Assembly (NCBI GenBank): GCA_009746045.1
Contig: RPFO01000648.1
Coordinates: forward strand, 588,734 to 652,733
Length of the DNA stretch: 64,000 nucleotides
Reading direction: 5' to 3'
Source of the DNA: Mesostigma viride
Taxonomy: Eukaryota; Streptophyta; Mesostigmatophyceae; Mesostigmatales; Mesostigmataceae
The position numbers and the translations under genes were made by a program. The stretch's first letter is position 1. Every line of letters starts with the position of its first letter. The notes under the pieces were generated by a model that was given only the letters and a program-made list of their open reading frames with translations, was not told the origin of the DNA and ran no database searches. Shown in pieces: positions 10,339-59,000 of the stretch.

Positions 10339-10488
10339 GTTGTACAAGCTAGTGCTTATACTTTTTATGCGCAAACCTTTTAACTAAGGTTAACGCATAT
10401 TCTTACATCCTGCGCAGGATGTAAGAATATGCGTTAACCTTAGTTAAAAGGTTTGCGCATAAAAAGTATAAGCACTAGCTTGTACAAC
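10339..10488. mobile_element. Perfect 150-bp palindrome (foldback/MITE-like insertion)
   Basis: The two 75-bp arms are perfect reverse complements with no spacer; the centre is CCTGC|GCAGG at 10413/10414 and the ends are GTTGTACAAGC / GCTTGTACAAC. TGTAGGA flanks both sides (10332-10338, 10489-10495), a 7-bp target duplication. It interrupts RT coding in the Copia-like pol. It has no coding capacity and could fold into a 75-bp hairpin as DNA or RNA. Superfamily unknown. Confidence 0.9.
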
Positions 10489-10495
10489 TGTAGGA

Positions 10496-13087: not shown

Positions 13088-13124
13088 GGGGTGATTGACT
13101 ATTTACAGGGGATGATGTAGCTAG

Positions 13125-28235: not shown

Positions 28236-28311
28236 TGGAAGAGATTAATTGAAGGGTCTTAGGCGTGCAAGGGCCCATTATCATTATAATATCCCCATTA
28301 TCATAATAATG

Positions 28312-29016
28312 TCATCCTGCTCCATGCAGCAAGAACCGAACTTTCTTCCTGCAGGTCACTTCCCCCCGCGAGGAAGAAGCTGCAGAGACCAGGCTGGTGG
28401 CCACGATGGGGTCACCTTCTTCTTTGGGCAGGCGGCGGCCGACACTCGCCATCACCGCAGCGACGTTCTCATGCTCATGCAGTGGTAGGCCGGGTTCGGC
28501 AGGACACACCACGCCTGGCGGCTGCGATACATGGCAGACAGCCATGTCCTCTCCGGCCGTCATTCCCATCAGCGTGTTGCGACCTGCAGCCCTCCTGAGT
28601 GCTAAGAACGGCACCGAAGCGCATGGAGCCAATGCATCGCCACCAGCGTGATGCACCTGTACAGTGCCAACGTCTACACTTGCCTCCAGGCCACCCATTA
28701 CCGCGCCGCCCCCTCCATGCTCCCATGCTGCTGGTGGCAATGGCCCGCCGCTCCACCCCCCGTTGAACAAACCTTGAGCATGGGCACGGGGGCGGTCATG
28801 AGGGGCAGCCGCGGGCGAGAGGGAGCCGCTGCCGGATTGCGGATCGCAGGTTGTGGCAGGACAGGTGGCAGCAGGGGTGGAGGTTGCGTGGGCGGCACCC
28901 TGATTGCTGCTGTCGACCGCCACGGTGACATACTCCAGGTTGAGCAGCACCGTGTTGCGCGACGTGAGCTCTGCCAGCTCGCGGTCACTCTTCACTGAGC
29001 GGGCGTCCGCGCCCTC
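28312..29016 (-). CDS. SNF2 gene exon 22 (terminal)
   Basis: 705 nt, phase 0 start after GCACGCAG, stop TGA at 28314-28312. It begins EGADARSVKSDRELAELTSR followed by NTVLLNLEYV, then a ~200-residue Ala/Gly/Pro-rich tail with no recognised domain. The tail is much longer than expected for this family, so an unseen intron or a shorter true end is possible. Confidence 0.65.
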   Translation of the reverse strand, partial: EGADARSVKSDRELAELTSRNTVLLNLEYVTVAVDSSNQGAAHATSTPAATCPATTCDPQSGSGSLSPAAAPHDRPRAHAQGLFNGGWSGGPLPPAAWEHGGGGAVMGGLEASVDVGTVQVHHAGGDALAPCASVPFLALRRAAGRNTLMGMTAGEDMAVCHVSQPPGVVCPAEPGLPLHEHENVAAVMASVGRRLPKEEGDPIVATSLVSAASSSRGEVTCRKKVRFLLHGAG

Positions 29017-32000
29017 CTGCGTGCAAACGCAACAACAAGCAAGGACAAGAACAAGCGCGCACGCGCAGCAGCCGCAACCATCAACAGGGGCACCAAGGGA
29101 GTACGAAGGAGTACGAGAGTGCGGCCTCGGGCATGACGGCGGTGCTTATGAACGCGACAACCACCCATCAGCAGGAGTGCCGCAGGAACACCCGGCCGTG
29201 CTGACGGAAAACATAGTACAGAAGTATACCATCCTAGCGCGTGGCTTTCCCCACACCATCCCAACCTGTAGTACCACCATCCTATATGCATATCCTGTCT
29301 TTTCTGCTTACCTGCACAGTGGCGCACTGTTTTGCATCATCCAGTGCAATGTTGCTGCAGCCCACTTGGTCTACAAGTACCCAGGGCTTGCCGGCAGGAC
29401 GGCTGTAGTGATTGGATTGCATGACGAGTACACTTGCTCTATGGCCTTTACTATTCCGCCCCATTTATTGGACGCTGCCTATCTAAAGCCTGTAAACCAT
29501 TACCTTCAATGGACGAATGCCATCATAAATTACATACACCGTCCCAATATGCCCCCATGACTCCCAGGTCTGCCCCTGCCCACATAGTCCCTGTCCTGCT
29601 GAGCAGTTGTGTGCGCTGCTACGTTTCTCCACTCCCCCCCCCGAACCTGACTTTTCTCCCCCGCCCACCTCTGCGTGCGCCAGCACTTCTTCTCCCCTGC
29701 ACCCACCTCTGCGTGCGCCAGCAGCGATAGCATGGACTCCTCCGCGGTCCCCTTCATGGCCAGCGTCTCCACCAGTATGGGCCGCAAGGCGCCCATGCGG
29801 TACGCGCGGCTCACCACCTGCTCCTCCACGCTGGTGGTGGCGGGGTGGGTGGCCGTGCATGGGCAAGTGTATGTGTGTGTGTGAGAGAGAGAGTTTCTTT
29901 GTTGGGGTGGATGGAGGGTAGGCGTACAGGGCAGGGTAGCTGCGGCGGGGAGCGGGACGGATGGTAGCACAGCAAGGGGTTGGCAGGCAATGACAGCGGT
30001 CAGCCAGGGGGAGGGAGGGTGGCAGGCGGCAGGAGAACGCCCCGATAGGCAGCCCACACTGAAGGGTTATTTGTTGCCAGCCAAGCAGGCCAGTTATATA
30101 TATTTATTGCCAGACGCGGGAGCACAGTTATGCTAACACACCGCTCAACCTGCCAGGGGACAGGGCCCAGGGAGACCCTAGTCCACCGGGGTCCCTGCAC
30201 ACGCGTCCTGGGTCTCTTATTGGCGTGCAGAACCAGACCAGGCAGGCAGCGATGTTCGCAAAGGCACATTTTGGGCGTGAGGGGCATTTAAGCCGTGAGC
30301 GCGATGGCCAGGTCATGAAGCATCGGCGTGACGTCTGCACGCGCCCAGGGCACACCGCCTGCTGACCTTTGCCATCGTGACACATGGCGTCCTCATGGCG
30401 TGCCCTGTCGGCTTTCAAGCATGCGGGTCCTACGTCCATAGCGACGGGGTGGCACACGCTGGGAACCCATGACCGTGACCATGACTAGAACATGGACCGC
30501 CAAACGGTTGCGATGAAGAAACTCGCAATGACCGCGATCACCACCAGGCCTTTGTTGGCCGTGCCCCCACACAGCTGCTTTGCTACTCCAGTTACTCCAG
30601 TGTAGCTACAGGCAACAACGTTTGCTTTGTCTGCCTCGTAGCAGCGCACATGCCCTACCCGCCGTCCAAAATCAGCTCCAAGATGAACGCGCGCAACGCC
30701 ATCGCTTGTCGTCGCCATCAACAACGCGCGCAACCTGGTCGCTTTTGCCGCCATAAGGAAGACGAGCGGCGGCATGCCCCTACCTGCGGTCCCAGATGGG
30801 CTCCATCAGGAAGACGTGCGTGACAAAGCTCAGGTCAAGCCCCAGCGACCCGCTCTCGTCCATCAGCAGCACGCCGCACGAGCCGTCCGACTGGAACAAG
30901 GCCAGCTGCTCCCGCTGTAGAGACAGGGGGGGGGGGCGACAGGGGGTGGCGACAGGTGGCGGCGGGACATGCCACGCGGGTCGGTTGTTGGGCGGCAGGG
31001 GCACCCAAGGACATGAAGGCATGCATGCAGTTGGTGATGAGGGATGAGGCATCCGTGGTGAGGGCAGTGCGGCGGAATGGGCCAGCTACTGGCGGCATGC
31101 GCAGCACACATGATGAGCATAGCACACAAGGGTGGGTCGGATCCACCCAGCTGGTCGCTTGCAAACCACCGTAGTGGCTGAACACAAATTACGATCAACC
31201 AGCCACTTTCACGAGCCCAAACCAAGCCTCAAACTGAAGTTTTCCAGGCGAATTGCAGCAAGGCTCTAGGGTTTGCAACGCGGGCGCTTCCTATATGCGC
31301 TTCCTATTTGGCGCCAGGAGGCGAAATACAAAACCATTGCTCTCATCGCTCGATGTACCTACCAATGTACCAAAAGCGATCGTGAGCCCAATCGAAGCCC
31401 CCGATTTAGCGAATTACGGGGGTCCATTCGACAACAGTTCATCGTAATTCGTTACCAGCCACATGGGTAGTTTCTTTTTATGGCAGATGGCCTCCATGGT
31501 GCATGTTGGGACAGCACGTCAACGATGCCAGTCATGGCTCGGACACGCCCAGCCTCCATGGACTTGCCCGGCAGGCGGGCAGGGGATATGGTCCGTACCA
31601 AAGTAGTGCATGTTGTCGTAATAGAATGATTGGATGCCTTGATTGATTAACCAAGGCGGGGGGGTTCAACAAAGGCAGGGGGCTTCCCTCAGCCAACCAG
31701 TGTGTGCACATGCCTGTCGTTCGATTGGTCCGTCCCAGGTCAGCCCATCACTCGCGCATCAGTCGACTGCTTAAGAACCCCATGGGTCTACCCCCAAAAA
31801 CCCAAATCCACCCAAAACGAGGACCTGTTGCTCCCACCCTGGTGCCGAGGGAGACGGCGCAGGGTGCATGCCCAGACCAGTGTCCGCTGCATGCACACGT
31901 ATGGACTATGCCCACGATGGCTACTATGTAATGTGAATCGCCTGCCCACACACTGCTCCAAACGGAGGGCCTGCCTCTGGCAGATCCCAAGGCCCTTGCA

Positions 32001-35000
32001 CCAGCGGCGTCCAGACATGTATGCATACGCAAGCAGCCAGCATACGCAAGCAGCCAGCTAGGGGCGGCGGGGCAGATGGCACGCACCCACATCGCACACA
32101 TGAGTCTTCACCTTGCCACCATGCCGGCTTGCTTTGCGGTCTATAGGCGCCTACCTTTCGCTCCATGCTCCCCACATGCAGCACATAGACAGATGCCGAC
32201 AGCACCACAGGCGAGCCCATTGCCGCCCTTCCTTGCGCCCCCTCTCCTCTCCCTATCTGCCCCCTCTTCCCTCACCTTTCGCTCCATGTTCATTGGGTTG
32301 AAGATGTTGGCATGACGGATGCCACGCGCCTTGAGCTGTGGATGCAATATCGCACACACATGCACACACACATGCACGCATGCATGGGACGTGACGCAGT
32401 GCAGCAGCAACAACAGCACGGGGACGCAATAAGGAGAGAAGCAGGCACAAAAAGTGTTGATGAATGGCGGGTACATCGGTAGATGAGGTGCACGCCATGC
32501 ATAGGTACCTGCGCGATCATCGGTTGCATGGCTAGACAGTGGTTAGCAAGCGAGTGGCATCTGCAGGTGCCAGCAGCCAGCATGCGGGTCAAGTGAGCCG
32601 TTTGCCAGCGAGAGGCAAGCAACGACGAGAAAGACTGCTGCTTGCACCCGGCGGCCAACCAGGGCATGCCAGCTGTCGCAGGGACGTATCCAGGCACCAA
32701 ACTGACCCACGCCCCGACACCTACGCCTTGTTCACTATAGCATAGTGCTCCTCACCTTGTTTACTACCACGAAGGAGCGCTCACCTTGTCGCTGAGGAAC
32801 ATGAGGTGTTCGAGTACGCCTTGTTCACTATAGCACAGTGCTCCTCACCTTGTTTACTACCACGAAGGAGCGCTCACCTTGTCGCTGAGGAACATGAGGT
32901 GTTCGAGTACGCCTTGTTCACTATAGCACAGTGCTCCTCACCTTGTTTACTACCACGAAGGAGTGCTCACCTTGTCGCTGAGGAACATGAGGTGTTCGAG
33001 TACGCCTTGTTCACTATAGCACAGTGCTCCTCACCTTGTTTACTACCACGAAGGAGTGCTCACCTTGTCGCTGAGGAACATGAGGTGTTCGAGTACGCCT
33101 TGTTCACTATAGCACAGTGCTCCTCACCTTGTTTACTACCACGAAGGAGTGCTCACCTTGTCGCTGAGGAACATGAGGTGTTCGAGTACGCCTTGTTCAC
33201 TATAGCATAGTGCTCCTCACCTTGTTTACTACCACGAAGGAGTGCTCACCTTGTCGCTGAGGAACATGAGGTGTTCGAGTACGCCTTGTTCACTATAGCA
33301 CAGTGCTCCTCACCTTGTTCACTATAGCATAGTGCTCCTCACCTTGTCGCTGAGGAACATGAGGTGTTCGAGTACGCCTTGTTCACTATAGCATAGTGCT
33401 CCTCACCTTGTTTACTACCACGAAGGAGCGCTCACCTTGTCGCTGAGGAACATGAGGTGTTCGAGTACGCCTTGTTCACTATAGCATAGTGCTCCTCACC
33501 TTGTTTACTACCACGAAGGAGTGCTCACCTTGTCGCTGAGGAACATGAGGTGTTCGAGTACGCCTTGTTCACTATAGCATAGTGCTCCTCACCTTGTTTG
33601 CTACCACGAAGGAGCGCTCACCTTGTCGCTGAGGAACATGAGGTGTTCGAGTACGCCTTGTTCACTATAGCACAGTGCTCCTCACCTTGTTTACTATAGC
33701 ACAGTGCTCCTCACCTTGTTTACTACCACGAAGGAGCGCTCACCTTGTCGCTGAGGAACATGAGGTGTTCGAGTACGCCTTGTTCACTATAGCATAGTGC
33801 TCCTCACCTTGTTTGCTACCACGAAGGAGCGCTCACCTTGTCGCTGAGGAACATGAGGTGTTCGAGTACGCCTTGTTCACTATAGCACAGTGCTCCTCAC
33901 CTTGTTCACTATAGCATAGTGCTCCTCACCTTGTCGCTGAGGAACATGAGGTGTTCGAGTACGCCTTGTTCACTATAGCATAGTGCTCCTCACCTTGTTT
34001 ACTACCACGAAGGAGCGCTCACCTTGTCGCTGAGGAACATGAGGTGTTCGAGTACGCCTTGTTCACTATAGCATAGTGCTCCTCACCTTGTTTACTACCA
34101 CGAAGGAGTGCTCACCTTGTCGCTGAGGAACATGAGGTGTTCGAGTACGCCTTGTTCACTATAGCATAGTGCTCCTCACCTTGTTTGCTACCACGAAGGA
34201 GTGCTCACCTTGTCGCTGAGGAACATGAGGTGTTCGAGTACGCCTTGTTCACTATAGCATAGTGCTCCTCACCTTGTTTACTACCACGAAGGAGCGCTCA
34301 CCTTGTCGCTGAGGAACATGAGGTGTTCGAGTACGCCTTGTTCACTATAGCATAGTGCTCCTCACCTTGTTTGCTACCACGAAGGAGCGCTCACCTTGTC
34401 GCTGAGGAACATGAGGTGTTCGAGTACGCCTTGTTCACTATAGCATAGTGCTCCTCACCTTGTTTACTACCACGAAGGAGCGCTCACCTTGTCGCTGAGG
34501 AACATGAGGTGTTCGAGTACGCCTTGTTCACTATAGCATAGTGCTCCTCACCTTGTTTGCTACCACGAAGGAGTGCTCACCTTGTCGCTGAGGAACATGA
34601 GGTGTTCGAGTACGCCTTGTTCACTATAGCATAGTGCTCCTCACCTTGTTTACTACCACGAAGGAGCGCTCACCTTGTCGCTGAGGAACATGAGGTGTTC
34701 GAGTACGCCTTGTTCACTATAGCATAGTGCTCCTCACCTTGTTTACTACCACGAAGGAGTGCTCACCTTGTCGCTGAGGAACATGAGGTGTTCGAGTACG
34801 CCTTGTTCACTATAGCACAGTGCTCCTCACCTTGTTTGCTACCACGAAGGAGTGCTCACCTTGTCGCTGAGGAACATGAGGTGTTCGAGTACGCCTTGTT
34901 CACTATAGCATAGTGCTCCTCACCTTGTTTACTACCACGAAGGAGCGCTCACCTTGTCGCTGAGGAACATGAGGTGTTCGAGTACGCCTTGTTCACTATA

Positions 35001-38000
35001 GCATAGTGCTCCTCACCTTGTTTACTACCACGAAGAAGTGCTCACCTTGTCGCTGAGGAACATGAGGTGTTCGAGTACGCCTTGTTCACTATAGCACAGT
35101 GCTCCTCACCTTGTTTGCTACCACGAAGGAGCGCTCACCTTGTCGCTGAGGAACATGAGGTGTTCGAGTACGCCTTGTTCACTATAGCATAGTGCTCCTC
35201 ACCTTGTTTACTACCACGAAGGAGTGCTCACCTTGTCGCTGAGGAACATGAGGTGTTCGAGTACGCCTTGTTCACTATAGCATAGTGCTCCTCACCTTGT
35301 TTACTACCACGAAGGAGCGCTCACCTTGTCGCTGAGGAACATGAGGTGTTCGAGTACGCCTTGTTCACTATAGCATAGTGCTCCTCACCTTGTTTACTAC
35401 CACGAAGGAGCGCTCACCTTGTCGCTGAGGAACATGAGGTGTTCGAGTACGCCTTGTTCACTATAGCATAGTGCTCCTCACCTTGTTTACTACCACGAAG
35501 GAGCGCTCACCTTGTCGCTGAGGAACATGAGGTGTTCGAGGAACTGGGAGAACACAATGCTTTTATCCGCCACGCCGTGCGCCGCAGGGCACACAGGGCA
35601 CGAGGGCGGCACCGGCAAGTCGGGTGAACCGCCGCCCTCTTGGTCCGACTCCACGGCCAGGCGGGCCTCGTCAGGACAGCTGACGCGTCCAGGAGTGGCA
35701 GACAGGCGCCCCCACGCGCACACAGGTTGGGCCAGGTGGCGCGTATGCGGCAGCCAACCGTCGTCCCATCAGGCACACGCCCATCACCGTCCACCGGACC
35801 AGCACAGGCAGGAAAGGACCGGTCAGCGAGTGCAGGCCAGTGTCCTCAAGTCGAACGGGGGACCGAGTGCTGGCTGTGGGGGCCCCACGCAACACACCCC
35901 AGCCAGCGCTGCCGGTCCACCGAGGAGGCCTATCTATGCTCCCATCCGCCAAGCGCCACAACATTGCGCGGATGTTGGATGCTGTGTGCTGGCAAGCACG
36001 GCACTAAACGCGCAGGGTGGCGTGCAGGGTGTGCGCACATGCATGCGTACACCCCACAGGCAGCAGCCCCTGGCCATTACCAACAATCAAACACGCAAAC
36101 ATAGGCAGCTGCCCCCTCCTGAGCTACCCCACCTCTACCCACCTCTACCCACCGCCTCCCACTAGGCATGCGGAACCCCACACGCTGACGCAAACACAAA
36201 CTGTCCGTGGTAAAGCACCCCAAATGGTAAAGCACTCCAAAGGGAAACGCTGAGCAAATAAACACATGCGAATAACTCTAAGCAAACAAACACGAGCAAA
36301 GGAGCACGCTTGCGTACAGAGACAAGCGTCCCACCGTCACCGTGCCAGTTGTCTACCTGCGATGACTGCCCACTGCACAATTAGCCGCACAGTACAGATG
36401 CATCAGCGTGGCCCCACCCGGCACAGATTACCCACAGCGGACGCAGGCCAGCCGACAACACTGTCACGACAACTTCCCAGGTGGGTACCAAGTGGAGCTG
36501 GGGCCCAGTGCCATCGCACACTACCGTCTTGCGCAAGACAGCGCGCACGGGACGAATGGAAGGCCAAGTGGGTGGGCACACGCGTGGGCGGGTGGCGTGC
36601 GACAGAGACACCATCCACCCGAGGGCCAGGCGCACTGCGGGGGCCAGACCCTCCCAGGCAACCTGGGACAAACGCTGGTGTCACAGCCTACCCAAAGCAC
36701 AAGAGGCATCGGTGCAACTAAGAAGTACCTGCATAACACCGTGTGCTGTAAACCAGCGCGAGAAACTAAACAGTGCAATAAACTCGATCTATAAACCAAT
36801 GCTATAAACAAGTGCTTTAAACCAGCGCCACACACCAGCGGTGCTACACATTATGGAACGGATGCTGTGCACGAGGGTTGTAAAGAGCGTGGGCATGGCA
36901 GGGCGCGGCGGGTACCAGTGGTTGCCGATCTCCTGCAGCCGCTGCATCAGGTGCACCAGCTTGGACGGCTCGTAGCGCATGTACGTCATGTTCCAGCTAA
37001 ACTGCGGCACGAGAGGCAACAGCGGGGCAGCAGCCGTCACAGGAAGCAAAAGCAAGTTCGTGAGGTGCCACGTGGCGCAGAGTGTGCCCCCTGCGCGCCA
37101 TCCACATGCGTCGAGGGCCCGCGGTCCTGTGGGCAGACAAACATGCATGGCGGCAAAGGCAAGTTGGCCGCGGCAAGCAGCCACACCAGGCGTCTGCCTG
37201 GGACCAGCCCCTTGTGGCCACAAAGCACCCAAGTGCCCTTTGACAATGAAAACACACACGCGCCCGCACGGCCCCGATGCCCATCCCCATCCGCGCCGAT
37301 CAGCACACTGCAAACCATGGGTCGCGAGTCCCTACGTTCACTGACGCGGAGGGTCAGGCCACCATAGCCGTGCACCACACACTACGAGCGTGAGGGGGTT
37401 GACCCGCAGCCACACGCACCGCAGCGTTGGGTACCAAACGGCGGGCGGTCCGTCACCTGCAGCTGTGCTTGCGCCCCCACCTGCTAATGCTTGCGCGCCG
37501 ACCTGCAACCGCGTGCCCCCCCACCTGCACAAACGCCGGCTGCAGCTGGATGAACTCTTCCGGGATGGGCTCGACCTTTGGGCACGGGTTGTCCGCGCTG
37601 GGCAGCCGAAGCACATCCATCTCGTAGGCGGCTCCGCACACGCCGCACGCCTCCTTGTTGCGCTCCACGCACGCCACACACAGCAGGTGGCCGCAGGGGG
37701 TGACCAGCGGCAGCCTGGCCAGGGTGGGGCAGGGGGGTGGCGTGGGACAAGACGTGCAGGATGGGTGCGCGTCACGAGAGTGGAGCCTACCCAGTGTAGA
37801 CATGCGTGCGCTCTGGAATGGACGATCTAACCAACTTTGTGGCTACAATCTATCCAATACATGGCGGCCCATGCAGGACATCGTCACCGCAGCAGACCAT
37901 CCACCGTGGGTTGTGGGCCTGCGAGCGCAACACGTGACAATGCCAGCAAAAACGTTTGCGAATCAGGGCACCATGGGCCGCGAGTGGCTGCGAAAGCCGA

Positions 38001-41000
38001 TCACGTTGGCTATCACAAGGCAAGGTAGTGCTGATGGCGGCGGGGGCAGATGGCAGAGGCAAGGCACACCACGCCTCGAAAGGTGTCTGGTAACGCTGCG
38101 CCGACAGTGGTAGATGGCAACCATGGAAGTGTCAGACGTCCCACGCCGCTGCCAAGGGCGCGCGGTGCGCCTCTCTTCTGCTACCAACCGGCACGCGTGG
38201 CTCTACCTGTAGGGACCACGCCGGCTGCGCACACCCTTTCCTCAAGAGGCGCAACACCGTCGCTCACCGCTCCTTCTTGCCGCAGTGCTCGCAGCCGCAA
38301 CCGTCCTCGGACAGAAAGCTGTCCCGCAGCGTGTCCAGTCGCTCCGGGGGGATGCCCTTCCCCTGCCCGGGCATGACATGGGACATGTGCATGCGCACGA
38401 CGATGAGATGGGACATGATGGCGCACACGCACGACCATGGGATGGAGCATGCCGTCGATGCCGTGGTTGCGACGCAAGGTGGCACCAGTACGAGAGAAAG
38501 GAATGATGTCAGCCAGCTAAGGCATAGACGTTGCTGACCGGAATTTGCGCCTGAGAAAGAGACGAGTATCGTTTTTTCTGGTGGCAACATTCCGCACTTG
38601 CCGAGGCCTCTGCCCGGTCTTCAGAAGTGACCAGTTGTCACCAGTACCGATAATGATGTAGTAGAATCTATTTATATTACCGATAATGATGTAGTAGAAT
38701 CTATGTATACTATTTATATTACCGATAATGATGTAGTAGAATCTATTTATATTACCGATAATGATGTAGTAGAATCTATTTATATTACCGATAATGATGT
38801 AGTAGAATCTATTTATACTATTTATATTACCGATAATGACGTAGTAGAATCTATTTATATTACCGATAATGATGTTGTAGAATCTATTTATACTATTTAT
38901 ATTACCGATAATGATGCAGTAGAATCTATTTATATTATTTATATTACCGATAATGATGTAGTAGAATCTACTTGCGGCGTCTGAGGCAAACCAAATCTTC
39001 TCACCATCTTACTAGCCTTTCTCCTAAAACAACAAGCAGCCACGGGCTAGGAACGTGGCAAGGCCTCAGCAACATTCATCACAGCTGTTTTCTTGGTAGC
39101 GTATGGCTCAGGATAGCCTGTAGGGCAGCCCTGTCAGCAGCTATTTTTTCTTGCGCAGCCACAGATTTGTAACTACTTGCGCTGCCTCAGCACCCTCGGC
39201 GCTTCTTCACCGCTTGCTTTTGACCAGCCTTTGCTGTGCCACTCATCTCCCCTACCTTTTCTTGCTGCACCGCTGCTAAGGAATTCCACCGCCCTACCTT
39301 TGCTGCCATCCAAGGCTGTCAGCCTACTGCAAACCGCACATCCAGCCTCGCATGGCGTAGGTTACCCCCTCCCCAGCACTTCCAACCGCTGGTCATGGTT
39401 GCTGCAGCAAAACACCCTTGGCAGCCCCTGCCCTGCCATGCACCCACTGCCAGACGGTTACCCACAGCCCATCACCCGCATGTCAACCACCCACCGCCAC
39501 TACTTTGCGCAAAGCCACCACGACCAATTCGCCCACTCCCAATGCCATCATTCTGCGTGCACCCACCGCCAGAATGCCACCCATCCACCGCCGCCATCTT
39601 GTGCGCACCCACCGCCAGAATGTCACCTATCCACCGCCACCATCTTGCGCGCACCCACCGCCAGAATGTCACCTATCCACCGCTGCCATCTTGCGCGCAC
39701 CCACCGCCAGGATGTCAAGGGACTCGGTCAGCTCCTCGCGGATGATGGCCGTCTTGATGTGGCCCGCCAGGCAGCAGGTCAGCCGTACATTGTTGAGCAG
39801 CTGCTTGGCGCGCTTGGATTGGCTGTTGGTGGCGCGCAGAAGGGTCAGGGGTTACGGTTCAGGGGTCAGCGTGGGTAGATGATAGACAGCGGGTGGCGAC
39901 AGCACGCAGGGCGTTCAATACTCGAATGTAACCATCCCATAGGGATGGCGGCCTAGCGGAGCCATAGCAAGCACAGACCGCCCAGGACATAGGTGTTGCC
40001 TCTTTGACAGCTACCTCACAAGCGTTTCGACTGAACCAGTTGGGAGCCCACCCTCCCTAGCCATAGTAGTTGCGTGGCTTTATGTTCTGGTCTCATGCTT
40101 CGACTGTTAGACACCAACCCCCGACTGTCATCAAGTCAGCAGCCCCCGTGACCCCAAGGCAAAGGAGGCAATGTCGTGGCCACCACGTAAAGGTCACATG
40201 CTTCGATCCAGACAGAAGCAAACGGCATGGTTGTACACAATGTATGTGGCATGGGTACAATCCAGAGGCTGAGCATGCACCGTGTTCTTGCCACCGCGCA
40301 AAGCGGAGCTATGCAAATGTTAGCAATGCCCCCGAGATGCAATAGCTCGGTAAGCTGTTTCCCAACTCCACCAATACTGCATCAGGGATGCGTACGAGAG
40401 ACAATTCAATCAGAGACACGTGAGTACGCGTGTGCAACAAGGAGCATGCGCATAGGGTGATCCAAGTATTGCTTCTGTCCATTGGAGTGAGGGGCTGCCA
40501 GAGAGTACAGTTTCATTACAAATGCGCGGAAGGCCCATGTCAACGCCCTAGTCAACCTAAGAATCCAAACGTACCCAGCGGTCTCCAGCGAACTAGGCCA
40601 CCCAACAAGGGCTGCAACATCACTTATCCAGTCATCTGGACCTGGGCCAGTCGTGAAGCCTGGACTTTGTAGCGAGGGTGGGCGGATGGGAGCTGCAAAC
40701 AGGCCTGGTTGTTGCCAAGCCACAACCCTAAGTACCAGCCGACTAGGGGTGGCGCGCGCCAGCCAAGTGACCGACCGGTCAGTGGCACCGCGCCGCCCCC
40801 AGTCCACAGAACTGCCCCAGGTCCACAGTACAGTCATTACCGCGTTAAGTTGCTATCGCCGCCTAAAACTTGGCGCCGCAACTTAACGCGGGAACGCAAC
40901 TTAACAGTAGAATTAGGCTAGCAGCCCACTACCTCCTCCTCTGACGGACTTCTGTACGGCATTCGACAGCTCTTGTCAAGCCCGATCCAGCTGCAGCGTC

Positions 41001-47000: not shown

Positions 47001-50000
47001 GCCACCTACCGAGCGTGTGCCCCTCGTCCACCAGCACGCGCTGCCAGTGGACGCGCAGCAGCAGGCTGCCGTGGCCCTTGCCCCACTCGACGCTCAGGCG
47101 GTGGATGGACGCGATCACCTGTGGTCGCGACACGTGGCGACGCGTGGGGCACCACACGTCGCCATCAGGCACGTTCCCCCGCATGCACACCGTGGCTGCA
47201 ACCACCCCGCGCATGCACAAGCCACCGCGACCATCATGGCCATCCCTACGGCTGCCGTGCCGGCAAGATCACGAGCTGCATCGCCCCATCACGGGCTAGC
47301 GCCATGCCCTTGCTTCTCATAATTAACATTACTTTACATCATCAACACTAGTTTACATAATTTACATTACTTTACATCATCAACACTAGTTTACATAATT
47401 TACATTACTTTACATCATCAACACTAGTTTACATAATTAACATTACTTTACATAATTTACATTACTTTACATCATCAACACTAGTTTACATAATTTACAT
47501 TACTTTACATCATCAACACTAGTTTACATAATTTACATTACTTTACATCATCAAGACTAGTTTACATAATTAACATTACTTTACATCATCAACACTAGTT
47601 TACATAATTAACATTACTTTACATTATCAACACTAGTTTACATAATTTACATTACTTTACATCATCAACACTAGTTTACATAATTTACATTACTTTACAT
47701 CATCAACACTAGTTTACATAATTTACATTACATCATCAACACTAGTTTACATAATTTACATTACTTTACATCATCAACACTAGTTTACATAATTAACATT
47801 ACTTTAGACCGCGCCAGGCCATGGGACCAGAGCATGCCGCGCGCACCACCCTGGGTGGCTGCATAAGGGTGCAGGGATCACCGACCTTCGGTATTGTTGC
47901 CAGGGTTGTGCCATACCGACCTTCTGTATTGTTGCCAGGGTTGTGCCATACCGACCTTCGGTATTGTTGCCAGGGTTGTGCCATACCGACCTTCCGTATT
48001 GTTGCCAGGGTTGTGCCATACCGACCTTCTGTATTGTTGCCAGGGTTGTGCCATACCGACCTTCTGTATTGTTGCCAGGGTTGTGCCATACCGACCTTCT
48101 GTATTGTTGCCAGGGTTGTGCCATACCGACCTTCGGTATTGTTGCCAGGGTTGTGCCATACCGACCTTCCGTATTGTTGCCAGGGTTGTGCCATACCGAC
48201 CTTCTGTATTGTTGCCAGGGTTGTGCCATACCGACCTTCTGTATTGTTGCCAGGGTTGTGCCATACCGACCTTCTGTATTGTTGCCAGGGTTGTGCCATA
48301 CCGACCTTCTGTATTGTTGCCAGGGTTGTGCCATACCGACCTTCTGTATTGTTGCCAGGGTTGTGCCATACCGACCTTCTGTATTGTTGCCAGGGTTGTG
48401 CCATACCGACCTTCTGTATTGTTGCCAGGGTTGTGCCATACCGACCTTCTGTATTGTTGCCAGGGTTGTGCCATACCGACCTTCTGTATTGTTGCCAGGG
48501 TTGTGCCATACCGACCTTCGTATTGTTGCCAGGGTTGTGCCATACCGACCTTCTGTATTGTTGCCAGGGTTGTGCCATACCGACCTTCCGTATTGTTGCC
48601 AGGGTTGTGCCATACCGACCTTCCGTATTGTTGCCAGGGTTGTGCCATACCGACCTTCCGTATTGTTGCCAGGGTTGTGCCATACCGACCTTCTGTATTG
48701 TTGCCAGGGTTGTGCCATACCGACCTTCTGTATTGTTGCCAGGGTTGTGCCATACCGACCTTCCGTATTGTTGCCAGGGTTGTGCCATACCGACCTTCTG
48801 TATTGTTGCCAGGGTTGTGCCATACCGACCTTCTGTATTGTTGCCAGGGTTGTGCCATACCGACCTTCCGTATTGTTGCCAGGGTTGTGCCATACCGACC
48901 TTCCGTATTGTTGCCAGGGTTGTGCCATACCGACCTTCTGTATTGTTGCCAGGGTTGTGCCATACCGACCTTCCGTATTGTTGCCAGGGTTGTGCCATAC
49001 CGACCTTCTGTATTGTTGCCAGGGTTGTGCCATACCGACCTTCCGTATTGTTGCCAGGGTTGTGCCATACCGACCTTCCGTATTGTTGCCAGGGTTGTGC
49101 CATACCGACCTTCTGTATTGTTGCCAGGGTTGTGCCATACCGACCTTCTGTATTGTTGCCAGGGTTGTGCCATACCGACCTTCTGTATTGTTGCCAGGGT
49201 TGTGCCATACCGACCTTCCGTATTGTTGCCAGGGTTGTGCCATACCGACCTTCCGTATTGTTGCCAGGGTTGTGCCATACCGACCTTCCGTATTGTTGCC
49301 AGGGTTGTGCCATACCGACCTTCTGTATTGTTGCCAGGGTTGTGCCATACCGACCTTCTGTATTGTTGCCAGGGTTGTGCCATACCGACCTTCCATATTG
49401 TTGCCAGGGTTGTGCCATACCGACCTTCTGTATTGTTGCCAGGGTTGTGCCATACCGACCTTCTGTATTGTTGCCAGGGTTGTGCCATACCGACCTTCTG
49501 TATTGTTGCCAGGGTTGTGCCATACCGACCTTCTGTATTGTTGCCAGGGTTGTGCCATACCGACCTTCTGTATTGTTGCCAGGGTTGTGCCATACCGACC
49601 TTCTGTATTGTTGCCAGGGTTGTGCCATACCGACCTTCTGTATTGTTGCCAGGGTTGTGCCATACCGACCTTCTGTATTGTTGCCAGGGTTGTGCCATAC
49701 CGACCTTCCGTATTGTTGCCAGGGTTGTGCCATACCGACCTTCTGTATTGTTGCCAGGGTTGTGCCATACCGACCTTCCGTATTGTTGCCAGGGTTGTGC
49801 CATACCGACCTTCCGTATTGTTGCCAGGGTTGTGCCATACCGACCTTCCGTATTGTTGCCAGGGTTGTGCCATACCGACCTTCTGTATTGTTGCCAGGGT
49901 TGTGCCATACCGACCTTCTGTATTGTTGCCAGGGTTGTGCCATACCGACCTTCCATATTGTTGCCAGGGTTGTGCCATACCGACCTTCTGTATTGTTGCC

Positions 50001-53000
50001 AGGGTTGTGCCATACCGACCTTCTGTATTGTTGCCAGGGTTGTGCCATACCGACCTTCTGTATTGTTGCCAGGGTTGTGCCATACCGACCTTCTGTATTG
50101 TTGCCAGGGTTGTGCCATACCGACCTTCTGTATTGTTGCCAGGGTTGTGCCATACCGACCTTCTGTATTGTTGCCAGGGTTGTGCCATACCGACCTTCCG
50201 TATTGTTGCCAGGGTTGTGCCATACCGACCTTCTGTATTGTTGCCAGGGTTGTGCCATACCGACCTTCTGTATTGTTGCCAGGGTTGTGCCATACCGACC
50301 TTCTGTATTGTTGCCAGGGTTGTGCCATACCGACCTTCTGTATTGTTGCCAGGGTTGTGCCATACCGACCTTCTGTATTGTTGCCAGGGTTGTGCCATAC
50401 CGACCTTCTGTATTGTTGCCAGGGTTGTGCCATACCGACCTTCTGTATTGTTGCCAGGGTTGTGCCATACCGACCTTCTGTATTGTTGCCAGGGTTGTGC
50501 CATACCGACCTTCTGTATTGTTGCCAGGGTTGTGCCATACCGACCTTCTGTATTGTTGCCAGGGTTGTGCCATACCGACCTTCTGTATTGTTGCCAGGGT
50601 TGTGCCATACCGACCTTCCGTATTGTTGCCAGGGTTGTGCCATACCGACCTTCCGTATTGTTGCCAGGGTTGTGCCATACCGACCTTCCGTATTGTTGCC
50701 AGGGTTGTGCCATACCGACCTTCTGTATTGTTGCCAGGGTTGTGCCATACCGACCTTCTGTATTGTTGCCAGGGTTGTGCCATACCGACCTTCCGTATTG
50801 TTGCCAGGGTTGTGCCATACCGACCTTCTGTATTGTTGCCAGGGTTGTGCCATACCGACCTTCTGTATTGTTGCCAGGGTTGTGCCATACCGACCTTCCG
50901 TATTGTTGCCAGGGTTGTGCCATACCGACCTTCTGTATTGTTGCCAGGGTTGTGCCATACCGACCTTCTGTATTGTTGCCAGGGTTGTGCCATACCGACC
51001 TTCCGTATTGTTGCCAGGGTTGTGCCATACCGACCTTCTGTATTGTTGCCAGGGTTGTGCCATACCGACCTTCCGTATTGTTGCCAGGGTTGTGCCATAC
51101 CGACCTTCCGTATTGTTGCCAGGGTTGTGCCATACCGACCTTCTGTATTGTTGCCAGGGTTGTGCCATACCGACCTTCTGTATTGTTGCCAGGGTTGTGC
51201 CATACCGACCTTCTGTATTGTTGCCAGGGTTGTGCCATACCGACCTTCCGTATTGTTGCCAGGGTTGTGCCATACCGACCTTCCGTATTGTTGCCAGGGT
51301 TGTGCCATACCGACCTTCCGTATTGTTGCCAGGGTTGTGCCATACCGACCTTCTGTATTGTTGCCAGGGTTGTGCCATACCGACCTTCTGTATTGTTGCC
51401 AGGGTTGTGCCATACCGACCTTCTGTATTGTTGCCAGGGTTGTGCCATACCGACCTTCTGTATTGTTGCCAGGGTTGTGCCATACCGACCTTCTGTATTG
51501 TTGCCAGGGTTGTGCCATACCGACCTTCTGTATTGTTGCCAGGGTTGTGCCATACCGACCTTCTGTATTGTTGCCAGGGTTGTGCCATACCGACCTTCTG
51601 TATTGTTGCCAGGGTTGTGCCATACCGACCTTCTGTATTGTTGCCAGGGTTGTGCCATACCGACCTTCTGTATTGTTGCCAGGGTTGTGCCATACCGACC
51701 TTCTGTATTGTTGCCAGGGTTGTGCCATACCGACCTTCTGTATTGTTGCCAGGGTTGTGCCATACCGACCTTCTGTATTGTTGCCAGGGTTGTGCCATAC
51801 CGACCTTCTGTATTGTTGCCAGGGTTGTGCCATACCGACCTTCCGTATTGTTGCCAGGGTTGTGCCATACCGACCTTCCGTATTGTTGCCAGGGTTGTGC
51901 CATACCGACCTTCCGTATTGTTGCCAGGGTTGTGCCATACCGACCTTCCGTATTGTTGCCAGGGTTGTGCCATACCGACCTTCTGTATTGTTGCCAGGGT
52001 TGTGCCATACCGACCTTCCGTATTGTTGCCAGGGTTGTGCCATACCGACCTTCTGTATTGTTGCCAGGGTTGTGCCATACCGACCTTCGTATTGTTGCCA
52101 GGGTTGTGCCATACCGACCTTCCGTATTGTTGCCAGGGTTGTGCCATACCGACCTTCCGTATTGTTGCCAGGGTTGTGCCATACCGACCTTCCGTATTGT
52201 TGCCAGGGTTGTGCCATACCGACCTTCCGTATTGTTGCCAGGGTTGTGCCATACCGACCTTCTGTATTGTTGCCAGGGTTGTGCCATACCGACCTTCCGT
52301 ATTGTTGCCAGGGTTGTGCCATACCGACCTTCTGTATTGTTGCCAGGGTTGTGCCATACCGACCTTCTGTATTGTTGCCAGGGTTGTGCCATACCGACCT
52401 TCCGTATTGTTGCCAGGGTTGTGCCATACCGACCTTCCGTATTGTTGCCAGGGTTGTGCCATACCGACCTTCTGTATTGTTGCCAGGGTTGTGCCATACC
52501 GACCTTCTGTATTGTTGCCAGGGTTGTGCCATACCGACCTTCTGTATTGTTGCCAGGGTTGTGCCATACCGACCTTCTGTATTGTTGCCAGGGTTGTGCC
52601 ATACCGACCTTCTGTATTGTTGCCAGGGTTGTGCCATACCGACCTTCTGTATTGTTGCCAGGGTTGTGCCATACCGACCTTCTGTATTGTTGCCAGGGTT
52701 GTGCCATACCGACCTTCGTATTGTTGCCAGGGTTGTGCCATACCGACCTTCTGTATTGTTGCCAGGGTTGTGCCATACCGACCTTCCGTATTGTTGCCAG
52801 GGTTGTGCCATACCGACCTTCCGTATTGTTGCCAGGGTTGTGCCATACCGACCTTCTGTATTGTTGCCAGGGTTGTGCCATACCGACCTTCTGTATTGTT
52901 GCCAGGGTTGTGCCATACCGACCTTCTGTATTGTTGCCAGGGTTGTGCCATACCGACCTTCTGTATTGTTGCCAGGGTTGTGCCATACCGACCTTCTGTA

Positions 53001-56000
53001 TTGTTGCCAGGGTTGTGCCATACCGACCTTCTGTATTGTTGCCAGGGTTGTGCCATACCGACCTTCTGTATTGTTGCCAGGGTTGTGCCATACCGACCTT
53101 CTGTATTGTTGCCAGGGTTGTGCCATACCGACCTTCCGTATTGTTGCCAGGGTTGTGCCATACCGACCTTCCGTATTGTTGCCAGGGTTGTGCCATACCG
53201 ACCTTCTGTATTGTTGCCAGGGTTGTGCCATACCGACCTTCTGTATTGTTGCCAGGGTTGTGCCATACCGACCTTCTGTATTGTTGCCAGGGTTGTGCCA
53301 TACCGACCTTCTGTATTGTTGCCAGGGTTGTGCCATACCGACCTTCTGTATTGTTGCCAGGGTTGTGCCATACCGACCTTCTGTATTGTTGCCAGGGTTG
53401 TGCCATACCGACCTTCTGTATTGTTGCCAGGGTTGTGCCATACCGACCTTCCGTATTGTTGCCAGGGTTGTGCCATACCGACCTTCCGTATTGTTGCCAG
53501 GGTTGTGCCATACCGACCTTCTGTATTGTTGCCAGGGTTGTGCCATACCGACCTTCTGTATTGTTGCCAGGGTTGTGCCATACCGACCTTCTGTATTGTT
53601 GCCAGGGTTGTGCCATACCGACCTTCCGTATTGTTGCCAGGGTTGTGCCATACCGACCTTCTGTATTGTTGCCAGGGTTGTGCCATACCGACCTTCTGTA
53701 TTGTTGCCAGGGTTGTGCCATACCGACCTTCTGTATTGTTGCCAGGGTTGTGCCATACCGACCTTCTGTATTGTTGCCAGGGTTGTGCCATACCGACCTT
53801 CTGTATTGTTGCCAGGGTTGTGCCATACCGACCTTCTGTATTGTTGCCAGGGTTGTGCCATACCGACCTTCTGTATTGTTGCCAGGGTTGTGCCATACCG
53901 ACCTTCTGTATTGTTGCCAGGGTTGTGCCATACCGACCTTCCGTATTGTTGCCAGGGTTGTGCCATACCGACCTTCTGTATTGTTGCCAGGGTTGTGCCA
54001 TACCGACCTTCTGTATTGTTGCCAGGGTTGTGCCATACCGACCTTCTGTATTGTTGCCAGGGTTGTGCCATACCGACCTTCTGTATTGTTGCCAGGGTTG
54101 TGCCATACCGACCTTCTGTATTGTTGCCAGGGTTGTGCCATACCGACCTTCTGTATTGTTGCCAGGGTTGTGCCATACCGACCTTCTGTATTGTTGCCAG
54201 GGTTGTGCCATACCGACCTTCTGTATTGTTGCCAGGGTTGTGCCATACCGACCTTCCGTATTGTTGCCAGGGTTGTGCCATACCGACCTTCCGTATTGTT
54301 GCCAGGGTTGTGCCATACCGACCTTCTGTATTGTTGCCAGGGTTGTGCCATACCGACCTTCTGTATTGTTGCCAGGGTTGTGCCATACCGACCTTCTGTA
54401 TTGTTGCCAGGGTTGTGCCATACCGACCTTCCGTATTGTTGCCAGGGTTGTGCCATACCGACCTTCTGTATTGTTGCCAGGGTTGTGCCATACCGACCTT
54501 CTGTATTGTTGCCAGGGTTGTGCCATACCGACCTTCTGTATTGTTGCCAGGGTTGTGCCATACCGACCTTCTGTATTGTTGCCAGGGTTGTGCCATACCG
54601 ACCTTCTGTATTGTTGCCAGGGTTGTGCCATACCGACCTTCCGTATTGTTGCCAGGGTTGTGCCATACTGACCTTCTGTATTGTTGCCAGGGTTGTGCCA
54701 TACCGACCTTCTGTATTGTTGCCAGGGTTGTGCCATACCGACCTTCCGTATTGTTGCCAGGGTTGTGCCATACCGACCTTCCGTATTGTTGCCAGGGTTG
54801 TGCCATACTGACCTTCTGTATTGTTGCCAGGGTTGTGCCATACCGACCTTCCGTATTGTTGCCAGGGTTGTGCCATACCGACCTTCTGTATTGTTGCCAG
54901 GGTTGTGCCATACCGACCTTCCGTATTGTTGCCAGGGTTGTGCCATACCAGAGTAACTCGTACTCCATTCTTGTCAGGGCGACACTGCTAGCTCCCTGAA
55001 GCGAGACGGGGTGCAGCAACACACCGGCCAACCTCAACCATGAAAAAGCAAAGCATGCTTATCCTGGACCCTAAGCCCCAAAGCCCCACAACCCCCAGCC
55101 TCAACCCTGAATCGCCATCCCCTACCCCCACTGACCCCTAAGCTGGCCCCATGGCACAATGCCAACCCCCTTGTGCGCCAGGAAAGGTTATCCTGGATGA
55201 TGATCATGAGGACTGGTGCCCCTCGCCCCTCGTGTCTTCCGCAATGGTGGCAGCAGAGCTCACTCCCCCGTGTACGGTCACCCGATGGGGTGTTGGGCAA
55301 GGCCGCACACGACCACACCAGCCTGGCCAGCTCTCTAGCGATGGCATGTTCCCGGTTCGGCCGCGTGCCGCGTTCCCCCCAATCAACCCACAAGCACGCT
55401 GGCCGTGCGCAAGCATACACGCGCAGCCGTCAGCGAAGCATGACGAATGGGCACTCCACGGCAGCAAAGGGGGCAAATGCGGTGGGTTGGGTGGCAGGCC
55501 GCACACGAAGGTGGCATGTTGCAGTATCTTCCCCCCTCGACACCCTGGTACGTCCAGGCTCCTGTCCAGTGTGCCGCTCCTAATGTACGCGCGCTAGCTG
55601 GCCCTGCCCCTATCACACGCATGTCCCTGTGCACTACCCATCGGGTAGTACATGTGTGTACGCGTGCACGCGTGTGCGTGTGCGTGTGCATGTATGTATG
55701 CGTGCATGTGTATATGTGTGTATGTGTGCATGTGTGTAGTGCGAATGTGTGTACGCGTGCCATCCATTGCTGAAAAATCCCCTAAGTCGCAGCGGGCCAT
55801 GTGTTAGGTCTGAAAGGCAGGGTGTGAACGCATCATTTTACGCTCCTTTTCCAGATCACCTCCTTTCAAGGCGACGATGACTCCTGCCTCCCAACGATGA
55901 CACGTGGCGTACAGGCCTGCCACATGCACGACATGAGGGTGTGGCTGCACAGCCCATCAGACTACCACGATTTGTGGCTTATTACTAGAGTATGGAAATG

Positions 56001-59000
56001 TCTTGCTGTGAGGCCGCCCCCACCCCATCCTGGTGCGCTGCATCGCGACATCCCACTGTTCTCTACGCGGCCGCCCCCACCACATCCTGGTGCGCTGCAT
56101 CGCGACATCCCACTGTTCTCTACGCGGCCGCACCCACCACGTCGTAGTGAGCGGCGATCTCGTGCGGCGTTACGTGCGCCAGCACATCGTCGCGGTCCCA
56201 CACCAGCACTTGCAGCAGGCCGCGCCGCGTGTGCTGGCGGATCTGCAGCACGGCGAGGCAAGGGCATGGAGTAGCGTGGGGTACAAGGGGGCGTTCATAC
56301 AAGGTGCGGTGATGGTTGGCAAAAAATAGTGTGGATACAGAGACCACCACTCAGTACAGTAGTAATGCACCAGGGGGCATGGACGCCACGCATGCAGTCA
56401 CACACATGCTTCAAAACGCGCGGGACACGAGTGAGGAGCCACGACGCATGGCCAAAGCGTCCTTTTCCATCCCACGATGTGACTCTGTACTTAAGCATGG
56501 GAGAAACGAATAAGGGGAAAACCATTCCCTACGCTTGCCGGGACAAGCCCATCAGCCTCTGGCTAAGTCAGCCAGAAAGCTTGCTGCATTGGCCCCCACC
56601 TCACAAGCACCACACGGCTACCAGCAAAAACGACCCCAGGAACACGAGGTCTGCCATACACGCGATCCATGCGGCTGCGTCGCCGTCCATCCTCAGCGAT
56701 CGCAGGTGCGGCGAGCACAGCCAGCAGTGCTCGCCCCCCGGCTGTGCCCCCCTGGCTGTGCCCCCCCGTACCTGCTGCTCCCAGTGGCGCATCAGCGTGG
56801 GCGGCACCAGCAGCAGGGTTGCGGCGGACAGAAAAATGGGTGCCGAGGAGGACGATGCAAGTCGACCGCCTGCAGTGAGCGACACGCCCTGGGGGCTGCT
56901 GCCGGCGCCTGCCCTGCCCAGGCCGACTGATGGGCTCCCCAGCCGCCCCCGCAGGCCCCCAGAGTAGGGCGGCAGGCCCTTGAGCGCCTTCCTGAGGGCG
57001 GGCAGGTCGAGCTGCAGCTGACAGAGGCGCCCTGGCATCCGCCACGAGTGTTGCTGCGCCATGCGGGAGGCAGGGCTGGAGGGCGACAGCAGCGCGGGGG
57101 GGAGGCCCACCGCCGCGCGCGAGGAGCTCCTGGGCCCACCCGAGGGGCTTGCGGGGCTTGATGTGGTGGGACATGGGGGCGGAGTGAGGGCTGCCCCTTT
57201 GCTTTTCTGGCGCATGCGTGGTGGCGTGCGTGCTGCGCCGCCCCCCTTGTGGGCATCAGGCGGCCGAGTCGCGGGCGAGCAAGGGCCGGCCCCTTTCAGC
57301 TGGCAAACAATTACACGGTCAAGAACGCAGAGCAATCAACCACACGGTCAAGAACGCAGAGCATGGCGCGCACTAAGGGCACGAACACGCAGCAGGGCAG
57401 GGCAGGGACACAAAGGTGAGGGCGTGCGCGTGAGGGCGTGAATGTGAGGGCATGCGCGTGAGGGCGTGCGTGTGAGGGCGTGCATGTGAGGGCGTGCATG
57501 TGAGGGCGTGCGTGTGAGGGCGTGCGCGTGAGGGCGTGAATGTGAGGGCATGCGCGTGAGGGCGTGCGTGTGAGGGCGTGCATGTGAGGGCGTGCGTGTG
57601 AGGGCGTGCTTGTGAGGGCGTGCGTGTGAGGGCGTGTGTGTGAGGGCGTGCATGTGAGGGCGTGTGTGTGAGGGCGTGCATGTGAGGGCGTGCGTGTGAG
57701 GGCGTGCGTGTGAGGGCGTGCGTGTGAGGGCGTGCGCGTGAGGGTGTGTGTGTGAGGGCATGCGCGTGAGGGCATGCGCGTGAGGGCATGCGTGTGAGGG
57801 CATGCGTGTGAGGGCGTGCGTGTGAGGGCGTGCGTGTGAGGGCGTGCGTGTGAGGGCGTGCGCGTGAGGGCGTGCGTGTGAGGGCGTGCGCGTGAGGGCG
57901 TGCGTGTGAGGGCATGCGCGTGAGGGCGTGCGTGTTAGGGCATGCGCGTGAGGGCGTGCGTGTGAGGGCATGCGGAGGAGGCAAGCAGCATGAGCACGGG
58001 ACATGGGCAGACAACACAAGCAACCCTGTGCACAGCTCAGGCTCATGCTCCTGTGCCTGAACCATGTCTACCCCTCCGCCCCCCTTCTTCCCCGGCCATG
58101 CCCTCCGCCCTGTCCTGGCGTACGCGGATGGACGGTGGCCAACACGAGCCTGCACGCAAGAGTTGCTCTTGTGGCCACTAGTGGTTTGTGGCGTGCGGCC
58201 CACGGACCCATGTGTGGGCGGGACCGCGAGGGGCCCGCTCATGGCACGGCACATGCTGACCTGACCACCAGGCTCGATGCGCGGTCTACATACAGGGCGT
58301 GGGCGCAAGGGGTGAGGCCAGCATAGAATGCGCCCCGCGGAAACCTCCACCTCAGCACCACGCCTCACCGTCCCCATCCATAGTTTCCCCCCATCCCCGT
58401 TCCCCATCGATGTACCTCCGCACGGCTCCTGTCACGCGGCTGGCGGCGAGGAGACGCCCTGCCCCTCTGTGCGTGCGACGACGGTGATGGCTCCAACGCA
58501 GCTGCACCTGGCGCCTGCCGGAACGAGGGCGACGGCAGTGATTGGTCAGCTGCAAGGTGCGCCTCGTCGGCCAGCTGATGCAGCAGCTCCTCCACTTTGT
58601 GCTCCAGGGGGTCCTGTTGGCACCAACACAAAAAGGGGACAGTAGAACGAGACCACCAGGGAGTCAATGGTGGCCAAAGGATGGTAAACGTTGCGTGACA
58701 ACAGCTCTGAGGACTGAACAAAGAACAGGTCTGACGGTGCAACAGTAGGCAGGGCAGAAGAGAGGGAAGCAGGGCGGAACAGAGACGGAAGGGCAACCTT
58801 AGCAATAACGCCCCCAGCGTGGCCTATGCGAGCACAAGGCGGATGCAACCACATGGCGGATGCAAGCACAAGGCGGATGCGAGCACATGGCAGATGCAAG
58901 CACAAGGCCCACCTCTTCTGTGGCCAGCACCAGACCCAAGTGGCGGAACACATTGGCGCCATAGTCCGCTGGCAGGCGCGCGTCCTTGTGCACCAGCAGG

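Follow-up and report, generated by a model that had tools for sequence, protein, structure and literature searches.

It is still an open question by which routes introns become longer, and why they are long in some lineages, and the locus considered here poses it in a specific form: are the ends of exons, together with their 5' splice sites, recurrently copied into the introns that follow them? The locus lies in a stretch of 64,000 nucleotides of the Mesostigma viride genome, analysed at its full length and referred to below as the window, in which a preliminary description had reported such copies within a single gene. The published NIES-296 assembly of this species comprises 441,847,188 bp and 24,431 genes, with a reported mean intron length of 1141.87 bp (PMC6947507), and the genome searched here comprised 439,911,974 bases. 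If true, duplication focused on real exon edges would represent a concrete route of intron lengthening, which can be tested directly on a genome-wide scale.

The host gene is the SNF2/CW helicase gene Mv18658, the in-window part of which (28312..63287, minus strand; exons 1-22) was delineated from the joined reading frame, Pfam matches and a protein alignment. The twenty-two joined minus-strand exons give an open frame of 1589 aa, with SNF2, zf-CW and Helicase_C domains distinguished by Pfam and a RING-like match falling below the cut-off. Residues 810-1355 of this query share 100% identity with a public M. viride protein (P0001; Mv18658-RA.2; 2023 aa) and 44 to 48% identity with land-plant relatives, many of which carry the name F-box protein At3g54460. 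Judging from these alignments, Mv18658 is a relative of this plant F-box protein. Spliced alignment of P0001 on the gene yields twenty-one introns with both flanks scoring high, and one further intron upstream, whose left exon is very short, was left out of the donor side. The alignment shifts the exon 3 donor, where the 22-exon model is 20 codons too long, and the exon 1 start, where the model is too short. The same donors are recovered for exons 7, 8, 13, 14, 16, 18, 19 and 21, and the eight donor borders flagged in the preliminary description are thus supported by the protein model.

Copies of splice junctions were scored as the best ungapped segment covering six bases to the left and two to the right of a position, with the copy located 12-250 nt downstream. 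Clear junction-spanning copies are present at 6/21 Mv18658 donors (exons 7, 8, 14, 18, 19 and 21), all read on the minus strand. Tandem repeats distinguished by TRF begin within three of these exons. These include a 57-bp repeat (2.3 copies; 56012..56140), which starts inside the 3' end of exon 7 (56138-56242) and extends into intron 7 (copy at 57 bp, junction score 55), a 46-bp repeat (3.6 copies; 39554..39717), which starts inside the 3' end of exon 14 (39705-39822; copies at 46 and 92 bp, score 54), with the donor 9-mer found unchanged at four more places in intron 14, and a 93-bp array of approximately thirty units (32722..35540), the first unit of which is made up of the final 30 nt of exon 18 (35511-35679) and 63 nt of the intron (copy at 93 bp, score 90). 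Intron 18 contains 27 more exact AAGGTGAGC donor 9-mers and 60 MAGGTRAG sites, making this a hard splicing case, where the first donor must win over approximately sixty strong look-alikes for the annotated protein to be produced. Single copies occur at the remaining three donors. The final 27 nt of exon 8 (47010-47118) and 11 intron nucleotides recur once 45 bp downstream (46954..47036; score 29), with 25/27 exonic bases identical and GCAGGT as the donor of the copy. At exon 19 (32276-32335), 16 exonic nucleotides plus GT are copied 121 bp downstream (32153..32291; 15/16 identity, score 15) across a spacer without detectable repeat, and at exon 21 (29707-29830), where TRF also reports a repeat, 17 exonic nucleotides plus the donor are copied 38 bp downstream (29650..29723; 17/17, score 22). 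Head-to-tail units of approximately 10-100 bp, as in an intronic minisatellite, are thus present in introns 7, 14 and 18, and the clean spaced copies do not have this structure.

Weaker scores were obtained at exon 13 (42142-42221), where a diverged copy 77 bp downstream retains 14/19 exonic bases (42038..42160; score 10) and is weak on its own, at exon 16 (37525-37714), where a weak 22-bp repeat detected by TRF (2.9 units; 37466..37529) starts at the exon end (copy at 44 bp, score 9), at exon 20 (125 bp, score 10) and at exon 4 (score 8). Outside the arrays, 6 to 8% of intronic positions score as high as exons 13, 16 and 20. The junction scores thus confirm the observation that exon ends and 5' splice sites of Mv18658 are copied into the following introns. 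Of the seven donors for which this was claimed, six are clear and exon 13 is weak, exon 16 is a weaker version as had been described, and the long 93-bp array at exon 18 is borne out. Spacings of 57, 46, 93 and 121 bp were reproduced, and those given as ~43, ~79 and 36 bp measure 45, 77 and 38 bp, respectively. None of the twenty-one acceptors in the first exon model has a clear copy (top score 6), and with the borders corrected according to P0001, scores of at least 15 are found at 6/21 donors and scores of at least 8 at 0/22 acceptors.

Several other repetitive features were observed in the window. Intron 7 (9019 bp) is mostly filled by a 35-bp repeat (approximately 202 copies over 7 kb; 47880-54949), across which six frames of 2,287 to 2,419 aa (three per strand) remain open because 35 is not a multiple of three. 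A dispersed element of approximately 910 bp lies in intron 13 (about 40829-41740), for which the matches listed at other sites include 21 of nearly full length (86-91% identity) and many that are partial. By eye, several retroelement-like frames can be distinguished in positions 1-27600, including an 875-aa pol-like frame (10475-13102, minus strand), and a 1024-aa frame (20905-23979, minus strand) looks like a tyrosine-recombinase retroelement. No second allelic copy was found among the candidates scored (39/1366 for window positions 28300-47200 and 39/420 for L023), sets in which the query's own place is likewise unlisted.

A wider sample of 30 stretches (298,990 bases) was chosen on the basis of Pfam matches (SNF2 genes and dynein heavy chains), with genes split into several exons being favoured. 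A purpose-written spliced aligner was run on the window gene, on seven sampled genes for which the species' own annotated proteins were retrieved (chimeric protein queries), and on ten more genes using homologs. Introns were required to be at least 80 bp long, to end in a YAG acceptor and to have a 15-residue flank score of at least 45 (own protein) or at least 30 (homolog) on both sides, with those failing on flank, length or acceptor being excluded. This left 118 protein-anchored introns in 17 gene regions including the window, 97 of them outside the window gene and none from the G9 region. At a threshold of 16, copies were found at 22/118 donors, at distances of 22 to 248 nt, and at 7/118 acceptors, at 67 to 194 nt. 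Donor copies are unevenly distributed among genes (17/52 in five genes versus 5/66 in the rest; P = 0.0007 for this post hoc split). A looser count outside the window gene (score of at least 15) gave 16/119 donors and 9/109 acceptors; it includes donor 4831 of gene S18, which fails the right-flank filter and is absent from the 118-intron counts. Introns with a donor copy are longer than the others (median 810 versus 621.5 bp, P = 0.003; 748 versus 593 bp outside the window gene, P = 0.02), in agreement with the earlier suggestion that such copying lengthens introns.

In a separate search, each exon edge, taken as at most 120 exonic and 14 intronic nucleotides, was compared with the remainder of the same intron. 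At a score of at least 14, matches to the upstream exon were found in 30/118 introns and matches to the downstream exon in 10/118, compared to means of 0.05 and 0.15 introns, respectively, over twenty rounds against the introns of other genes. Counted as matches at score 14, there are 126 on the donor side and 16 on the acceptor side per 118 own introns, versus 0.05 and 0.55 in other genes' introns, with two arrays accounting for most of the 126. Edge matches are direct in 142 cases and inverted in one, on the donor side, with none inverted on the acceptor side. Among the donor-side matches listed (score of at least 15), nearly all cross the junction, and the three exceptions (two in gene D1 and one in G6) lie within 42 nt of it. 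No donor-side repeat locus starts beyond position -42 within the up to 120 nt of exon searched, and on this basis, together with the single inverted match among 143, copying from exon interiors was rejected. Free copying of nearby sequence is likewise disfavoured, as no source was detected in the exon beyond -42.

Since the exon to its left is unrepeated, a donor can only occupy the left end, or first unit, of an array. Interior positions that have a downstream copy and no upstream copy, which occur at a rate of 2.6%, therefore form a fair background, and this first-copy comparison was taken as the right test. By this measure, donors are in excess across all introns (22/118 versus 3.0 expected, P = 8e-15) and outside the window gene (15/97 versus 2.6 expected, P = 6e-9), the latter also against a background of 4% (P = 7e-6). 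The recurrent process at existing donors that had been proposed for Mv18658 is thus seen in other genes. The left edges of repeat loci peak only at the junction. Twenty repeat loci start in the exon, at positions -42 to -8 of the donor, versus 3.0 expected per 40 nt from the intron density (14 versus 2.7 outside the window gene), and the left edges of repeat loci number 1, 9 and 12 in successive 20-nt bins from -60, followed by 4, 4, 1, 4 and 1. No repeat locus starts at -120 to -60 of the donors in the 118 introns. Across all introns, the rate drops from 9.3% (+20 to +60) to 2.6% (+150 to +250), and in introns without a donor copy it is nearly flat, at 2.8 to 4.7% over +20 to +500 (3.7% in the stretch +20 to +60, 2.8% in the stretch +250 to +500). 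Donor look-alikes within introns remain at background levels (NNG|GTRNG, 16/676; MAG|GTRAG, 3/73). The donor sequence alone is therefore insufficient, a hotspot driven by the motif was rejected, and these results support the conclusion that copies follow real exon edges rather than GT motifs.

Acceptors have copies as well. In the first-copy test, 7/118 acceptors have copies versus 3.1 expected (P = 0.03), and outside the window gene P = 0.09 was obtained against the 4% background. Nine acceptor-side repeat loci end in the exon, eight of these at +24 to +36, and twelve more end in the final 40 nt of the intron. For example, acceptors 4101, 7041 and 8298 (minus-strand reading) of gene S15 (L021) each have one or two scored upstream copies of the exon start, with 24 to 27 exonic nucleotides in the best copy. 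The earlier statement that acceptors show no similar excess holds in Mv18658 (0/21), the gene for which it was made; in the other genes, exon-start copies lie upstream of 7/97 acceptors. When donors were compared with acceptors, as the preliminary description had suggested, donors exceeded acceptors over all 118 introns (P = 0.005); outside Mv18658 the difference is non-significant (15/97 versus 7/97, P = 0.11), and strict donor specificity is not supported. As acceptors lie 1.5 to 2.7 fold above background, the two sides may share one process. The lower distance limit of 67 nt is based on seven acceptor copies, and 34 to 60% of interior repeats lie at least as far apart; weaker rows beyond this set include one at 15 nt (G9, outside the 118 introns) and another, of low complexity, at 60 nt.

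A donor excess could also arise without any hotspot, if local duplication were uniform, events in exons and near acceptors were purged, and donor-spanning events survived and remained recognisable for longer through their constrained exon copy. Local repeats are indeed found everywhere: at threshold 16, they take up 11 to 16% of the first and last 600 nt of introns and 24 to 41% of positions deeper in long ones. When coverage by such repeats is used as background, with low-complexity rows removed, the excess of all classes shrinks to 22 donors versus 13.4 expected (P = 0.002), or 15 versus 9.8 outside the window gene (P = 0.03), and the tandem class shows no donor excess at all (14 covered versus 12.7 expected), which is the strongest result against a hotspot. 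Tandem-class acceptors are missing (0 versus 12.9 expected, P = 2e-9), as a purge would predict, and the non-significant donor-acceptor difference outside the window gene points the same way. However, the coverage test is held to be less apt, because a donor can sit only in the first unit of an array, and the first-copy test, the left edges that peak at the junction only, and the lack of a clear 5' gradient in introns without a donor copy all argue against uniform duplication. Furthermore, when a pair with one copy constrained by the exon was simulated alongside a pair of free copies, the former was only 1.2 to 1.7 fold easier to detect. The spaced class is in excess in the coverage test (8 donors and 7 acceptors versus 0.7 and 0.6 expected), and in a test with 120-nt queries spaced matches occur at 12/118 donors and 7/118 acceptors versus, per intron, 3.1 to 3.3% of queries placed in the interior, a smaller contrast than in the point test. 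Taken together, we regard uniform duplication without a hotspot as unlikely, although it deserves more weight than a passing mention.

The structure of the copies bears on three further explanations. Mobile or introner-like elements may have inserted at splice junctions, with the exon-edge copies representing long target-site duplications. Copies of the spaced class have lengths of 22 to 46 nt, 10/13 spacers examined measure 25 to 74 nt, and donors and acceptors are both struck, as such insertion would allow. However, the thirteen spacers have no match elsewhere in the sampled regions, save for low-complexity runs and a GGAGATA repeat in the same intron, their lengths vary from 25 to 145 nt, and the tandem arrays contain no separate insert, which makes element insertion very improbable. 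Near-exact copies with a spacer lacking detectable repeat occur at S18 4831 (24/24), D1 6186 (13/13), S25 2540 (16/17) and window exon 19 (15/16), with shuffle p values of 0.18 to 0.99 for the four. Only one of them, S25 2540, belongs to the 22 donors counted, where it is classed as tandem. The view that spaced copies are wholly decayed tandem repeats fails for these four. Spacer repeats are non-significant (p 0.05 to 0.73) for S18 4831, S18 6408, D1 6186, window exon 19 and six acceptors. Gapped alignment of the spacers revealed that D2, S15 1320 and one D1 acceptor, classed as spaced, are in truth tandem, and two more near-exact copies, S15 7256 (spacer p 0.007) and S18 4026 (p 0.047), are doubtful, as is window exon 13. 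Junction copies at 93-102 bp make up 8/29 (four donors and four acceptors), and a general spacing near 95 bp was rejected, as repeats internal to introns have no such peak.

Selection might alternatively retain decoy exon ends, for example for splicing regulation or to keep U1 close to the exon. In many copies, a good donor or acceptor signal is still present beside exon-like bases, and the scatter of decoy donors noted in the preliminary description is thus real. Nevertheless, mismatches to the exon at codon positions 1, 2 and 3 number 15, 15 and 29 of 159 sites each (nineteen copies chosen as well supported; one row, D1 acceptor 614, was left out for a wrong offset), a pattern of free drift of the intron copy combined with silent change in the exon, and the signal is gone in some copies, which have GC or AT donors or a CTG acceptor. 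If used, the best-scoring decoy donors would add an in-frame stop in 16/22 cases and none in 6/22. Retention by selection accordingly appears to be very unlikely. The birth of new introns through duplication of an AGGT-bearing exon segment had also been brought up, and the copies would on that view be its relics. Direct duplications with AG|GT do exist, but that model needs a copy adjoining the acceptor, and the upstream-exon-end matches listed (score of at least 15) all end at least 297 nt before it. This link is not sustained, and relics of intron birth are scarcely credible as the source of these copies.

The explanation we favour, with slightly better than even confidence, is that local direct duplication is frequent in M. 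viride introns and strikes splice junctions, and donors in particular, at several times the rate seen at matched interior positions, with donor-spanning events surviving because the exon-proximal donor stays in use. The preliminary interpretation is partly supported. The duplications would probably stem from staggered-break fill-in repair or replication slippage, with some events leaving unrelated filler between the copies. Direct repeats of both kinds expected from staggered breaks, abutting or placed around unrelated filler, were found, with some spaced rows proving to be tandem or doubtful. A unit straddling the donor would carry up to ~42 exonic nucleotides and the intron start into the intron. 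With the exon-proximal donor remaining in use, as the annotated protein models suggest, the protein would be unchanged and the insert spliced away. The copy could then drift or expand into an array, as with the approximately thirty units of intron 18, so that introns would lengthen from the front end and acquire decoy donors. Duplications straddling the acceptor would be tolerated mainly where the copy is far enough upstream, plausibly on the other side of the branch point; the simplest reading is that close copies would be purged because splicing uses the first AG that follows the branch point. A more specific proposal, put forward tentatively, is that splice junctions are mutational hotspots where splicing or transcription at real exon edges, through paused polymerase, U1-bound nascent RNA or R-loops, provokes short direct duplications, and introns grow outward from their splice sites. 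Transcription or splicing as the cause of hot exon edges is a guess.

A literature search, with most subscription journals outside its reach, returned no report of exon ends and donors recurrently copied into the same intron, and related systems are known. Tandem repeats are described as commoner near intron-exon junctions in plants and green algae, especially Chlamydomonas and Volvox (PMC3887541). These resemble the Mesostigma copies in their proximity to junctions; the available text of that comparison, in which Mesostigma is not included, makes no reference to an exon edge or splice site within the unit. Direct repeats of 4-30 bp have been reported around exon-intron borders (PMC11782384), where, in the text available, the 5' border of an intron is compared with its 3' border as footprints of insertion, whereas in Mesostigma one border is copied inside its own flank. 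In Daphnia, direct repeats attributed to staggered double-strand breaks were reported in 55/90 new introns and 100/617 established ones, and staggered-break repair is thought to lengthen young introns (PMC4202315). Internal direct repeats are thus common to Daphnia and Mesostigma. As described in the accessible part of that study, however, the Daphnia repeats are internal or match an exon end to the far end of the intron (4-12 bp), while in Mesostigma exonic bases recur together with the donor close to that donor itself. The intron gain in the potato RdRp gene (PMC4974935; reviewed in PMC3443670) likewise involves, from the portions available, a tandem duplication across an exon-intron boundary with re-use of splice signals. 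In potato the duplication crosses the acceptor and produces a new intron (PMC4974935), whereas in Mesostigma it is introns already present that grow, mostly at their donors, through repeated events and at times into arrays, with no new intron implied.
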